A stretch of 64,000 nucleotides of DNA from Deltaproteobacteria bacterium (lineage in GTDB: Bacteria > Desulfobacterota > Binatia > HRBIN30 > JACQVA1). Both the position numbers and the translations under genes were made by a program. Under the pieces are notes generated by a model. The model was not told where the DNA came from. It did not search any database and saw only the letters and a program-made list of their open reading frames with translations. Positions 29,059-38,158 of the stretch are shown here, piece by piece (within the stretch, counting starts at the first letter, position 1; each line of letters opens with the position of its first letter). The stretch is taken from NCBI GenBank assembly GCA_016178705.1, contig JACOST010000031.1:186001-250000 (forward strand), written 5' to 3'.

Positions 29059-30292
29059 TCAAGCCGGTAGCGCCGATTGACGTCGCTGCAGGAAGCGGCG
29101 GACCGCAGGGTCTCGCTCGAGACCGATTGCGATTTCGTATGCGCGGCGGGATTCGTCATGCGCGCCTGTTTTGGCCAGCAGCTCGGCGCGCGCGGCCCAG
29201 TAGGGCTGGTATTCGGCGAGCCGCGCATCGCCGGCTACCTCTGGCATCGCCTCGAGAGCGGTGCTCGCGTCCTGTAACTCCGCAATCGCCAGCGCGCGAT
29301 TGATTGCGACCACCGGCGAGCCAGCGAGCGCGAACAGTGCGTCGTATAGCTGAACCACGTCTGTCCAGTTGGCGTGGCCCGTGCGGCAACGATGCACATG
29401 TGCCGACTGCAACGCACCCTCTAGCTGATAGCGGCCGATGGCGCCCAGAGCGCTGGCAATCCCACAACGCCGGATGCTGCTCGGCGAGCGGAATGTACTC
29501 GCCCTGCACATTTCTCCGCGCGCGGCGGCGGGCGTGCGCGTGAAGCATGAGTGCAAGCAGGCCCAGCGCCTCCGGTTCCTCGGGCAGCAACTCGGTCACG
29601 AGTCGGGCGAGAAAGACTGCTTCGTCGGTGAGATCGCGGCGGACGACATCGGTCCCACCGGGGTCGGTCCACCCTTCGGCAAAGGCGGCGTAGATGGCGT
29701 CGAGTACAGTGTCGAGCCGGCCGGGAAGTTCCTCGCGCTCCGGGACGCCGAATGGAACGCCGGCCTGCCGAATCTTGTCTTTGGCCCGAACGAGTCGCTT
29801 ACCCATGGCCGCCGGAGATGTGAGGAACGCCGAGGCGATTGTCTTCGCATCCAGCCCGAGCACCACCTGCAGAATCAACGGCGCACGGATGCCGACCTCG
29901 ATGGCCGGATGCGCGCAGGCGAACATCAAGGCCAGACGATGATCTGGGATTTCCGCATCCGTTGGCGCCGCGTTCAGCTCCTCGCTAAGGAACTGCAACT
30001 GCGTGGCGGCGTTCTCGCCGCTGCGGCGTCGTCGGGCGACATCGATCGTCTTTCGCCGCGCAACGGTCAGCAGCCACGCTTCCGGGTTCGACGGACAGCC
30101 GCGCAGCGACCAATCGGCCAGCGCTGAGGCGAACGCCTCCGAGAGCGCGTCTTCGGCAGCGGCCACGTCCCGCGTGCGTGCCGCAAGAAAGGCGACGAGC
30201 TTGCCGTAACTGCGACGCGCGACTGCGTCTGCCGTCCTACGCGCCTGCGTGTCGCCGTCGCGTGGTTCATTCACGCCATTGGTTTGTAGCAT
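29059..30292 (-). pseudogene. ECF42-type sigma factor with frameshifted C-terminal extension
   Basis: The first frame (30292 down to about 29460) encodes sigma region 2 (AAAEDALSEAFASALADW) and region 4 (ILQVVLGLDAKTIASAFLTS), and enters the C-terminal extension (EYIPLAEQHPALWD). It then turns into unrelated sequence. The correct continuation (ASALGAIGRYQLEGALQSAHVHR to RRQSALPA) is in another frame and ends at 29059. In family members about 15 more residues lie between ALWD and GRYQLE, so the break near 29452-29463 looks like a small deletion as well as a frameshift. The extension is the TPR-like part typical of ECF42 sigma factors. Assembly error cannot be excluded. Confidence 0.8.
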
Positions 30293-35199: not shown

Positions 35200-35313
35200 G
35201 GGCTCTCCCTTGCGTATACGCCCAGGCATGCGCCGCACCGATTTTGGGCGTCGACTCCATACCTTTGATAGGCGTTGCACTCGGATTGTCCCAATTCGAT
35301 GCTCAACGCGACG

Positions 35314-36156
35314 CTAGCCCGCGGCGCCGGGCCATTCGACAGCGTGAACGCGGACCGGGCGCTCGAATCCCTTGAGGGACATTTCTCCGAGATCTTGGAA
35401 GGTCAGGCCCTTTCCAATGCACAGCTCGGCGATCACGTTCGCTACCAGAATCTGATCCGGCTGTGCGTGGGAACAGAGCCGTGCGGCCAGTTGAACCGTC
35501 GATCCGAAGAGATCGTGTTGATGCTCGACGGGTTCTCCCGCCGCGGCACCGATTCGCACCTTGATCGGGTCGTCTGCGTGCTCCTGCTGATACTGAGCCA
35601 ACGTACGCTGAATCCGAGTTGCGCACCGAACCGCTGCAACCGGCGACGCAAACGACGCCATGATGCCGTCTCCGGTATGCTTAACCTCACGACCGCCTAA
35701 CGCGCTCAGGGCGTCCCGGACGATGGTGTCATGGATACGCAGCAGAACCATGGCCGCGTCATCGCCAACGCGTTGAGTCAGCGCCGTCGAGTCGACGATA
35801 TCCGTGAAGAGAACGGTCCGGATTCCAGGGTCTCGCTCGCTGCCCATGCCACCAGGGATGAGGACCGCTCCCGATGGATTCACTTCACCTCCGCCGAGGA
35901 ATCCCTCTGCTACCTCGGGCTCGACCTCGATAATCCGCTCTGCGACCAGGCCGTGTGCTTCACGGTGCACCGAGGCCGCCGCCTCCGGACTAGGCGCGTT
36001 GACGAGGCAGAAAGCCTTGCCGCGGCTCTCGTTGAACCAGTACTTAACATATTCGACGCCGTGCTTCCCCTGCACCTCGACATCGGCGGCGTGCGCCTTC
36101 GCAAGCGCTTCCGCGGTGGCTCCCTGGACCTCGTGGATGTCCATATACATTGGCAT
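35314..36156 (-). CDS. DUF4242 domain fused to class III adenylate/guanylate cyclase
   Basis: 280 residues. The start at MPMYMDIHE (36156) is supported by GGAGG 6 nt upstream. Residues 1 to about 85 match DUF4242 (YMDIHEV...VEYVKYWFNESRGKAFCLV), a small ferredoxin-like domain. The cyclase domain follows: metal-binding Asp in RTVLFTDIVDST and in HTGDGIMASF, plus RIGAAAGEP and FGSTVQLAARLCSHA. It would make cAMP or cGMP in the cytoplasm. DUF4242 may act as the sensory part (inference). The gene follows the selenoprotein gene on the same strand. Confidence 0.85.
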   Translation of the reverse strand: MPMYMDIHEVQGATAEALAKAHAADVEVQGKHGVEYVKYWFNESRGKAFCLVNAPSPEAAASVHREAHGLVAERIIEVEPEVAEGFLGGGEVNPSGAVLIPGGMGSERDPGIRTVLFTDIVDSTALTQRVGDDAAMVLLRIHDTIVRDALSALGGREVKHTGDGIMASFASPVAAVRCATRIQRTLAQYQQEHADDPIKVRIGAAAGEPVEHQHDLFGSTVQLAARLCSHAQPDQILVANVIAELCIGKGLTFQDLGEMSLKGFERPVRVHAVEWPGAAG

Positions 36157-36255
36157 GTCGACCTCCGAAAAGTGCGACGCCTGACCACCCAACGCTCAGT
36201 CGCACCGAGCAGCGACCGCATACCACGAACCCATGTGATCGGAGAAGGGACAAGC

Positions 36256-37074
36256 TCAGGATGATCCAGGCTTCTCTGACATCGAGGGAATCGGCATGTA
36301 TGTGGCGCGCCACTGGCCGGTCGTGTCCCACTGAAATGGAGTCTGCACGGTGGTGCGCGGATGGCGCGCCGTTTCAAGCAGGTCGAGCGCGATGCCAACG
36401 ATCGCTCGTTGCATCAGCACATCATCTGGCTTGCCGCACGGGTTGCCGAGCGGAAAGTCGGTGAACACGAAGCGGGGGACGCCGCACTGCTCGACGATGT
36501 CCCGCGCCGAACCGACTACGACCGTCGGCAGGCCATTCGCTTCAAGGTGTCGGGCGACCAGACTCACGGTCTGGTGACAAACTGGTCAAAGCGGGAAGAG
36601 CAACGCGACGTCGACGGCGTCGGCGCGACAGAGATCGAGGACGGCCGGCGCATACTTGTCGACAGTTCGGCGCTGGCTGAAGTCCGTCGGCACGCCGTAG
36701 AAGCGCGGCGAGGGAGTGCCGATGCGAGCGAGAGTCGCGAATTCTTCGAGGCGGCGGATCGGGAGGAAGGACTCGACGTCGCGAGTGTGCGTGGCCTCTT
36801 TGTGCCACGAGCGGTGGTCGGTGAAGAGCACGGCTGGCGGCGGCGAGGCGGGCGCGGCGTAAACTTCCGTCACACTTCGGTCCTCCTCGGTGAGTGCCGC
36901 GGTCGTAATCAGTGCGACCCGACTCTGGCCGAGCGACTTTGTGAGCGGCGCGAATGGTACGTCCTCGTGGTGTGCCCACCTGTACGGGTTTCCGTAACCC
37001 CGCGCGAGGTAGTACTCGCGCGACTTGTCGATGTAGCTGACGAAGGTGCGATGCGACGGATCGAACTCATCCAT
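36256..37074 (-). CDS. GrdB-family selenoprotein with in-frame TGA (Sec163)
   Basis: Two fragments in the same frame are separated only by a TGA at 36588-36586. Read through, they give 272 residues: ...VDVALLFPL-U-PVCHQTVSLVARHLE. This matches the glycine/sarcosine/betaine reductase selenoprotein B-related family, in which a UxxCH motif stands exactly here. Downstream, GVPRFVFTDFPLGNPCGKPD is also characteristic. GGAGGAG lies 5 nt before the ATG. A 7-bp hairpin follows the TGA at SECIS distance. The protein may reduce or bind a C-N or other electrophilic substrate, but the reaction of these stand-alone family members is unknown. A stop-interrupted pseudogene is unlikely because the sequence is intact on both sides. 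Confidence 0.88.
36557..36575 (-). promoter_or_regulatory. Putative bacterial SECIS hairpin
   Basis: On the coding strand, 10 nt after the TGA, ACCAGAC pairs perfectly with GTCTGGT around a 5-nt loop CGTGA. The loop begins 17 nt after the UGA and carries G at its second position. This fits the bacterial SECIS consensus of a small apical loop with an early G some 16-37 nt downstream of the Sec codon. It would recruit SelB with Sec-tRNA. Confidence 0.7.
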
Positions 37075-37334
37075 GTGGCTCCTCCAGCGTGGGGATCTTA
37101 TCGCCGCAGCGCGAAGAGAGCCACGCCTGCCCTGCTTCGGCGCAGCCAGCGCAGCTCACGACGGCTTTGTTAGCCTTGATCGGACATAAGACTCACCGCC
37201 GAGAACACGGAGAGTCGGCACGAAAGTATTCGAGCTATTGCATTTGGTCTAATTGGCAATGGACCTTCGTTTGGTGCCTTCCTGTCTCCCGCTCCTTGGC
37301 TCGGCGCTCTCGGCGCGCTCTGCGGTGGATCCGT

Positions 37335-37955
37335 TTATGTCACATCAAGGTTAGTTGACTTCCGCACGACCGCGTCGCGGAGGAAATGCATCCGGTCCTG
37401 GCCCCAGTAGAGTTTCCCCGCATAGACGAAACTCGGAGCGCCGAAGATGCCGTCGCGCTGCATGCCGAGACGGAAGCCCTCGGACGCTTCGGCGCGTAGC
37501 GCGTCGGAGTGGGCCGCGGCCAGGATGGTGCCCCGATCCAGCCCGGCGCGATGGGCGGCGTTGGCGATGACGTCGTCGTCGCCGAGGTCGAGCCCTTCAC
37601 AAAAGCGCTTGCGGAACGCCTCCACCATGAACATGTGTCCCGCGCCTTGCTGCTGCGCCCCGAGGAAGGCGGCATGCGAGAGCGACCAGTCGGGATCCAC
37701 AGCCGAGGGAAACTGTACCGTCAGCCCGCGCTCGCGCACGAGACGCCGGATGTCCTGCACGAGGTAGGCGATCCTGGCCGGCGTCGTCACAAAGAGGTTC
37801 GGGAACAGTTCAGGTGTTGGGTAGACCGGTATCCGCTCGATCGGGACCCCGAGAATCCCAATCTCTGTCTCAAGGCGCTCGGCCGCAAGCCAGGCGTAGG
37901 GGCTGCGGAAGCTGAAGTAGAAGCGAATCGAGGGTGTGGGGCTACGGTCGGTCAT
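37335..37955 (-). CDS. DsbA-fold oxidoreductase, 2-hydroxychromene-2-carboxylate isomerase-like
   Basis: 206 residues from MTDRSPTP. The N-terminus IRFYFSFRSPYAWLAAERLE has the Ser (SFRSPY) that replaces the CxxC of DsbA in HCCA isomerases and kappa-class GSTs. The C-terminal GIFGAPSFVYAGKLYWGQDRM contains the cis-Pro loop typical of the family. It could isomerise an aromatic ring-cleavage product or act as a GSH-dependent transferase. About 260 bp between it and the selenoprotein gene hold no feature that I can support. Confidence 0.85.
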   Translation of the reverse strand: MTDRSPTPSIRFYFSFRSPYAWLAAERLETEIGILGVPIERIPVYPTPELFPNLFVTTPARIAYLVQDIRRLVRERGLTVQFPSAVDPDWSLSHAAFLGAQQQGAGHMFMVEAFRKRFCEGLDLGDDDVIANAAHRAGLDRGTILAAAHSDALRAEASEGFRLGMQRDGIFGAPSFVYAGKLYWGQDRMHFLRDAVVRKSTNLDVT

Positions 37956-38055
37956 GGTGTCATGCCCGATGTTTGATACGAGCGGCATCAACCGGCTTGC
38001 TGCGTGATGTCCGCTCGATGAAGGGGTTGGCAGGCAGTTGGAGAAGGGCGGCGCC

Positions 38056-38158
38056 CTTCGAGACGGCGCTGCGCGCCTCCTCAGGACGAGCGGGAAAACG
38101 TTCTGGCAGAAGGGGAGAACCGCTCGTGCTGAGGAGCGCCGATAGGCGCGTCTCGAAG
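38056..38158. repeat. 103-bp palindromic element (CTTCGAGACG ends)
   Basis: The ends are CTTCGAGACGG... (38056) and ...CGTCTCGAAG (38158). Inside, CTCCTCAGGACGAGCGG and CCGCTCGTGCTGAGGAG continue the imperfect inverted pairing. It lies between the VOC gene and the HCCA isomerase gene, directly beyond an attC-like half-box (GTTAGGT, 38182-38188). Repeats of this GAGACG...CTCAGGACGAG type occur dispersed in other genomes; it is probably a non-autonomous mobile or hairpin element. Confidence 0.6.

Follow-up and report, generated by a model that had tools for sequence, protein, structure and literature searches.

The stretch from 36256 to 37074 of the window (the whole 64,000-nucleotide piece of DNA that was analysed) is most likely a genuine selenoprotein gene hidden by an in-frame stop codon, a conclusion to which comparison with relatives lends strong support. 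The selenoprotein is probably neither a D-proline reductase nor a glycine reductase. We consider it likely to be a stand-alone selenol reductase recycled by thiols, in which selenocysteine (Sec) would be genuinely inserted, no pyruvoyl partner would take part, and glutaredoxin or another thiol system would reset the active site.

The gene and its in-frame TGA codon

The original prediction described two same-frame fragments interrupted by a single TGA at FPL-U-PVCHQTV. Its coordinates proved correct, and the strand, which it had not given, is minus. The gene comprises 272 codons running from 37074 to 36259, with one internal TGA as codon 163 (36588-36586). Translated with TGA as U, the minus strand of 36256-37074 reads M...LLFPL-U-PVCHQTV...SS; nothing comparable comes from translating the plus strand there. 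In the list of open reading frames the gene is cut into 36586-37074 (162 aa) and 36256-36567 (103 aa, GTG start). We take the two fragments as one gene because the PrdB profile spans the TGA, because TGA or a Cys codon is kept at this position in relatives, and because the matched core contains no other stop. An alignment of 77 sequences backs the call, and the strong ribosome binding site claimed for the start is indeed present (Table 1).

Table 1. Features of the selenoprotein locus, in positions of the window
Feature	Positions	Strand	Basis
Selenoprotein gene, most likely, with Sec163; 272 residues	36256..37074	minus	ATG 37074-37072, terminal TGA 36258-36256; read-through translation
TGA, very probably the Sec163 codon of the U-P-V-C-H motif	36586..36588	minus	TGA in 78/80 and TGC/TGT in 2/80 of the best 80 of at least 570 named-genome relatives
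Ribosome binding site GGAGGAG, 4 nt 5' of ATG	37079..37085	minus	Sequence
SECIS-like hairpin CCAGAC-CGTGA-GTCTGG	36558..36574	minus	17 nt between TGA and loop; energy test and conservation
SCO4226-like nickel-responsive domain and nucleotidyl (adenylate/guanylate) cyclase domain in one ORF	35314..36192	minus	PF14026 E 5.3e-22, PF00211 E 1.3e-15; next gene downstream
DsbA-family thioredoxin-fold protein, 260 bp upstream	37335..37991	minus	Pfam PF01323 E 1.6e-25

The continuity of homology on both sides of the codon, which the original prediction had also asserted, is borne out by the NCBIfam PrdB model TIGR04483, which matches residues 41-249 straight across the TGA (E 2.3e-24). A scan of named genomes returned at least 595 stretches, at least 570 of them encoding relatives, and the best 80 were kept. 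As predicted, these relatives carry Sec or Cys at the position of the TGA: 78 of the best 80 have TGA, one has TGC (L057) and one TGT (L092), and none has a further stop in the matched core. Altered motifs or N bases let three of the 78 escape the motif pattern, and in these the codon was read by eye. For L024-L049 the match table gives one TGA each, the Sec codon itself having been read in part of them. Further Cys forms are L016, which comes from the order of the window genome, L153 and L154, with TGC at the Sec codon in L016 and in the plasmid copies of Roseomonas haemaphysalidis and Haematobacter massiliensis. A search of plasmid records yielded Cys forms together with annotated PrdBs, and a search of phage records for relatives found none. 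On the tree, three Cys rows require three independent changes to the Cys state. This tree, of a quick kind with SH-aLRT support and no bootstrap, omits L151 as partial and keeps one of each of the pairs L097/L134 and L109/L135, which were treated as identical contigs on the strength of their equal length. It places the window gene nearest two Candidatus Binatia genes, and the gene is 70% identical to L050. The genome of the window also encodes a second, shorter PrdB-like selenoprotein candidate (G000:C2:43448-44104; L022, L149), which has the motif UPFCNQ and one in-frame TGA and is 37% identical.

A SECIS-like hairpin lies just past the TGA. It folds at -9.7 kcal/mol in the window; synonymous recodings, which leave the peptide unchanged and follow the codon usage of the gene, average -2.1 (P 0.02). 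The same test was extended to 77 Sec rows, namely the window and 76 of the 78 TGA relatives (L082 and L119, with N in the stretch, were skipped). All six pairs are kept in 70 of these 77 rows, and the energy averages -8.8 kcal/mol versus -2.7 for recodings. The codon choice under the hairpin is equally telling: eight codons after the TGA, AGT is used in 66 of the 67 rows with Ser at that place, against 93 of the 1004 Ser codons in the rest of those genes. All three Cys rows have AGC at the eighth codon after the Sec position, and five Cys homologues (L057, L092, L016, L153 and L154), inspected by eye, have no GT-ending codon at that site. The arms also covary, since a CAA left arm pairs with a TTG right arm in all eight CAA rows, TTG occurring in 10 rows. 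By these sequence measures, the hairpin is conserved beyond the protein constraint. Folding a wider stretch of 42 nt at 17 other loci gave mixed results, with P about 0.013 or less in five and 0.037 to 0.37 in 12; in several loci, including the own-genome paralogue (P 0.22), recodings folded about as well. The case for the hairpin rests on the narrower test of the named-genome rows and not on this one. An Rfam scan of the 64-kb window at gathering thresholds returned no family.

The genome itself (6.1 Mb, 98% complete) has everything on the list of Sec machinery that the original prediction proposed as a check. It encodes a tRNA-Sec (74.7 bits, anticodon tca), selA (597 bits), selB (389 bits, its match lying 35 bases from that of selA) and selD (407 bits). 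The last of these has one in-frame TGA (L012, G000:C14:751984-752913), and selD is therefore probably a selenoprotein gene itself. Across the class, selA exceeds the cut-off in 94 of the 96 genomes with a family member and in 29 of the 52 without one. Two genomes, G012 and G126, have TGA copies but no selA over the cut-off, and both are fragmented assemblies.

The machinery, the relatives, the RNA hairpin and the distribution of selA are thus four grounds on which the TGA is very probably a selenocysteine codon. SelB, directed by the hairpin that follows the TGA, would insert Sec at residue 163. That both halves figure as separate entries in the list of open reading frames is what a real stop would give, be it the mark of a pseudogene, a sequencing error or the boundary between two small proteins. 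We find such a stop scarcely credible, given a TGA at the same codon in nearly all of the best 80 relatives from several phyla, the constraint on the hairpin, the Sec machinery of the genome and homology that runs uninterrupted on either side.

Kinship with PrdB and GrdB and the search for partner subunits

The original prediction assigned the protein to the GrdB family. Homology to that family stands, but the scores place the protein nearer PrdB than GrdB and below every NCBIfam cut-off. The match to TIGR04483 reaches 86.2 bits against a curated cut-off of 300, and the weaker matches to GrdB-type models are confined to their C-terminal part (profile positions about 275-429 of 431-435). A Pfam-A search gave no family above the cut-off, and PF07355 did not come up even at E values as high as 1. 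Profile comparison by hhalign with a GrdB-like protein encoded next to a PF09338 gene (L150) gave a probability of 99.1 over 200 columns. When the protein is aligned with PrdB of Peptoclostridium acidaminophilum (L155), the two TGA codons fall in one column, within UPVCHQ here and UGTCHR there.

The AlphaFold model (pLDDT 92.1, pTM 0.90) predicts a single alpha/beta domain in which a strand at 156-160 is followed by Sec163 just before a helix at 164-179. Four of the 80 relatives (L082, L119, L089 and L129) were left out of the alignment and hence out of the input for this model. Searches of solved structures by sequence and by fold brought up no convincing relative, Foldseek returning nothing at E 0.001 or better. 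The best fold match (VIA, Z 9.0, 7.0 A rmsd over 153 residues) has a LacI-type core, which is a common arrangement.

What sets the protein apart is the company it seems to lack. The pyruvoyl subunits PrdA and GrdE both belong, as we take it, to Pfam PF09338. According to the available text of two papers, D-proline and glycine-type reductases use PrdA or GrdE, mostly pyruvoyl-bearing, as the substrate-binding subunit (PMC13188914, PMC10838667). The PF09338 model finds no match in the genome of the window or in the other 14 genomes of its order, and the same model matches 33 of the 148 genomes of the class. It matches a single one (G059) of the 19 class genomes with a close member, and 26 of the 96 that hold members of the wider family. 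Beyond these, none of 48 other member genomes has a match, in a search whose sole positive control is the 33 of 148 obtained separately. This search covered 48 of 80 loci, three of which (L050, L051 and L097) probably already figure among the class genomes. GrdA (PF04723) is likewise without a match in the genome of the window, and 30 of the 148 class genomes match it, one of them barely over the cut-off. In the genome G132 and others of family code f16 we came across many GrdB-type reductases outside Clostridia; a single genome has 10 PF09338 and 16 GrdB/PrdB-like matches, some side by side.

Because the genome of the window has no match to either partner, PF09338 or GrdA, the protein would be placed outside both enzymes, as a homologue of PrdB and of the C-terminal part of GrdB. 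The absence of the partner proteins of amino-acid reductases also suggests that the reaction is probably a different thiol-driven reduction. A true PrdB subunit of D-proline reductase, or GrdB subunit of glycine/betaine reductase, is what the survey papers and automatic names would have it be, plasmid records calling even the Cys forms 'glycine/sarcosine/betaine reductase selenoprotein B family protein'. TIGR04483 is the best NCBIfam match, and the Sec column is common to Peptoclostridium PrdB. We nevertheless hold such a subunit to be very improbable and strongly disfavour it, since the 86 bits fall so far short of 300, identity to Peptoclostridium PrdB is 29%, and neither the genome of the window nor the 48 other member genomes matched PF09338, the former lacking a GrdA match as well.

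Gene neighbourhood, a linked glutaredoxin and the proposed mechanism

The two genes that flank the selenoprotein gene on its own strand, the cyclase-domain ORF and the DsbA-family gene (Table 1), form no cluster in common with the neighbours of its relatives. No neighbour is conserved around the selenoprotein gene throughout the window's clade, and none provides a consistent hint of the substrate. The neighbours there, named mostly by eye and in part by Pfam (whose tally covers 37 of the 64 listed co-directional neighbours), include acyl-CoA dehydrogenases, enoyl-CoA hydratases, CoA transferases, luciferase-like monooxygenases, SDRs and others, in no fixed place. An alpha/beta hydrolase follows immediately downstream on the same strand in nine loci of one actinobacterial group, and we take this adjacency as the shared gene order of that lineage. 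A promoter scan of 35200-38100 found no sigma-70-like site. Elsewhere in the window, at 29059-30292 on the minus strand, lies a gene for an ECF sigma-70 factor with DUF6596, whose C-terminal part, judged by eye, seems to run on in a different frame (29059-29556). The change of frame would be a frameshift or a sequencing error; searched by itself, the second ORF matches nothing in Pfam.

A different picture emerges in the sister clade. As the ORF picker was crude, taking the longest first, and left spurious ORFs among the neighbours, glutaredoxin was sought in six frames, with a profile of four glutaredoxin-like proteins, in flanks of up to 10 kb per side at 101 loci. The profile matched at 14 of the 101 loci (12 distinct), always on the same strand and immediately downstream of the selenoprotein gene, and a glutaredoxin of that type occurs at no other position in the flanks of the 101 loci. 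In 10 of the 12 loci, where it could be read, the ATG of the glutaredoxin gene lies 0-61 nt past the selenoprotein stop (0 nt in L128, 3 in L104 and 4 in L126). A clade of 15 tree rows (SH-aLRT 100), whose named members belong to Pseudomonadota, Myxococcota, Hydrogenedentota and Actinomycetota, accounts for this linkage: the gene is present in 12 of the 15 rows, or 12 of the 14 testable, the sequence of L118 ending 15 nt after the selenoprotein gene. Among the 148 genomes, all seven strong glutaredoxin matches (at least 97 bits) adjoin the selenoprotein gene, the next best match scoring 56 bits. By NCBIfam, the linked glutaredoxin resembles the YruB and NrdH types and stays below their cut-offs. 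The window gene belongs to the sister group of this clade on the tree; its locus has no such neighbour, and a search of its genome for that type of glutaredoxin at E 1e-5 came back empty. In many genomes (G108-G116 and G134 among them) there is a glutaredoxin-like gene of more distant kinship that carries one in-frame TGA and may encode a selenoprotein of the UXX-star kind.

This glutaredoxin might serve another pathway altogether and say nothing about the selenoprotein, and its absence from the window's clade and from two members of the sister clade itself (L136 and L138) would be in keeping with that. We think this quite improbable, because in the flanks of the 101 loci it occurs nowhere but beside the selenoprotein gene, because every strong match in the 148 genomes adjoins that gene, and because the clade in question spans four named phyla. 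A precedent for such a pairing is the subject of a 2011 paper cited in PMC9312934, in which, by its title, a selenoprotein glutaredoxin is said to reduce a selenoprotein methionine sulfoxide reductase. In the available parts of PMC1794560 and PMC9312934, proline reductase and glutaredoxin appear as two distinct selenoproteins, with nothing on a joint operon.

Taken together, these observations favour the stand-alone, thiol-recycled selenol reductase proposed at the outset. In such an enzyme, the selenolate of Sec163 would attack a small molecule that is electrophilic or oxidised, or else the disulfide of a partner, and the substrate would need no pyruvoyl anchor. Cys166, the presumed resolving residue, would then displace the product, leaving a Sec-S-Cys bridge between residues 163 and 166, which glutaredoxin or another thiol system would reduce. 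In the sister clade the reductant would be the enzyme's own glutaredoxin, encoded in the same apparent operon; the window copy would draw on a general thiol donor.

The strongest alternative is a relay of the thiol-disulfide or peroxide type, in which Sec163 and Cys166 would exchange electrons with glutaredoxin as well as with a protein or peroxide substrate. Such a relay would sit well with a glutaredoxin gene adjoining the sister-clade genes and with UxxC being a common redox motif among selenoproteins, as the accessible text of PMC2398784 describes it. The neighbours of a few relatives would fit it too, namely the thiol peroxidase-like gene (identified by eye) near L145 and L146 and the GST near L136 of the sister clade. 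On the other hand, where a reaction has been described or proposed for a homologue, the bond acted upon is a C-N or C-F bond in a bound small molecule, so far as the available text of PMC13188914 and PMC10838667 goes, and the order of strands and helices in the predicted model does not, to our eye, look thioredoxin-like. We therefore regard the relay as unlikely, though it is the most serious competitor of the selenol reductase. The thiol peroxidase-like gene lies shortly downstream on the same strand at L145 and L146, which belong to a neighbouring clade with the motif UPVCHQSVGLIARE.

Comparison with known systems

The original prediction that stand-alone members of this family have no established reaction is consistent with our literature search, which was of limited extent. 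The family is already in print as 'PrdB', and neither the missing partner nor the glutaredoxin operon turned up in the same limited search. Marine selenoproteome surveys, in the text available, describe a 'proline reductase PrdB' UxxC family, abundant in metagenomes, with 42 and 235 selenoprotein sequences (PMC1088965, PMC2398784), the 2005 survey among them assigning D-proline reduction to it. The window gene would probably have received that name. However, the absence of the partner speaks against a D-proline role for the window's clade, with the caveat that the surveys were compared by description. PrdB proper (TIGR04483) is a homologous single domain with Sec in the same column and U-x-x-C-H in common with the window protein. 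The latter differs in its 29% identity, its longer N-terminal stretch, the D-F-P-L-G-N signature that is invariant within its clade, and the want of a PF09338 partner match. The GrdB, GrdH and GrdF proteins (PF07355, TIGR01917, TIGR01918) are homologous through their C-terminal part, whereas the window protein, at 272 aa, is without their N-terminal half and its genome without a PF09338 or GrdA match.

Another related system is the fluoroacetate reductase FarB/FarE of rumen Synergistota, whose GrdB homologue is proposed, in the part of PMC10838667 at hand, to use Sec for nucleophilic bond cleavage. The proposed Sec nucleophile and a substrate other than an amino acid are points of likeness; FarB differs in being paired with a FarE subunit and in belonging to an anaerobe, and no such partner was found for the window protein.

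If the window's clade is truly without the proline reductase partner, the name PrdB misleads and a common selenium-dependent reaction remains to be found, as selenoproteins so named are among the commonest in ocean metagenomes according to the available text of PMC2398784 and PMC1088965. More broadly, we would put at a little under an even chance that Binatota, Chloroflexota, Actinomycetota, Myxococcota, Thermodesulfobacteriota and Pseudomonadota harbour widespread stand-alone selenol reductases of this kind. These would consist of the GrdB/PrdB Sec domain without a pyruvoyl subunit, take electrons from glutaredoxin (operon-encoded in one clade) and catalyse an undescribed reaction, the metagenomic label 'proline reductase PrdB' then being wrong.

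Two routes to the reaction suggest themselves. The glutaredoxin of the sister clade is a redox partner from which a screen for substrates could start. The other route leads through cultured Alphaproteobacteria, in which WP_207415257.1 and WP_035710215.1 are 46% and 42% identical to the window protein. They differ from it in having Cys (TGC) in place of Sec, and 'glycine/sarcosine/betaine reductase selenoprotein B family protein' is in their case only a name. As Cys forms in culturable hosts, they offer a genetic handle on the family that does not call for Sec expression.
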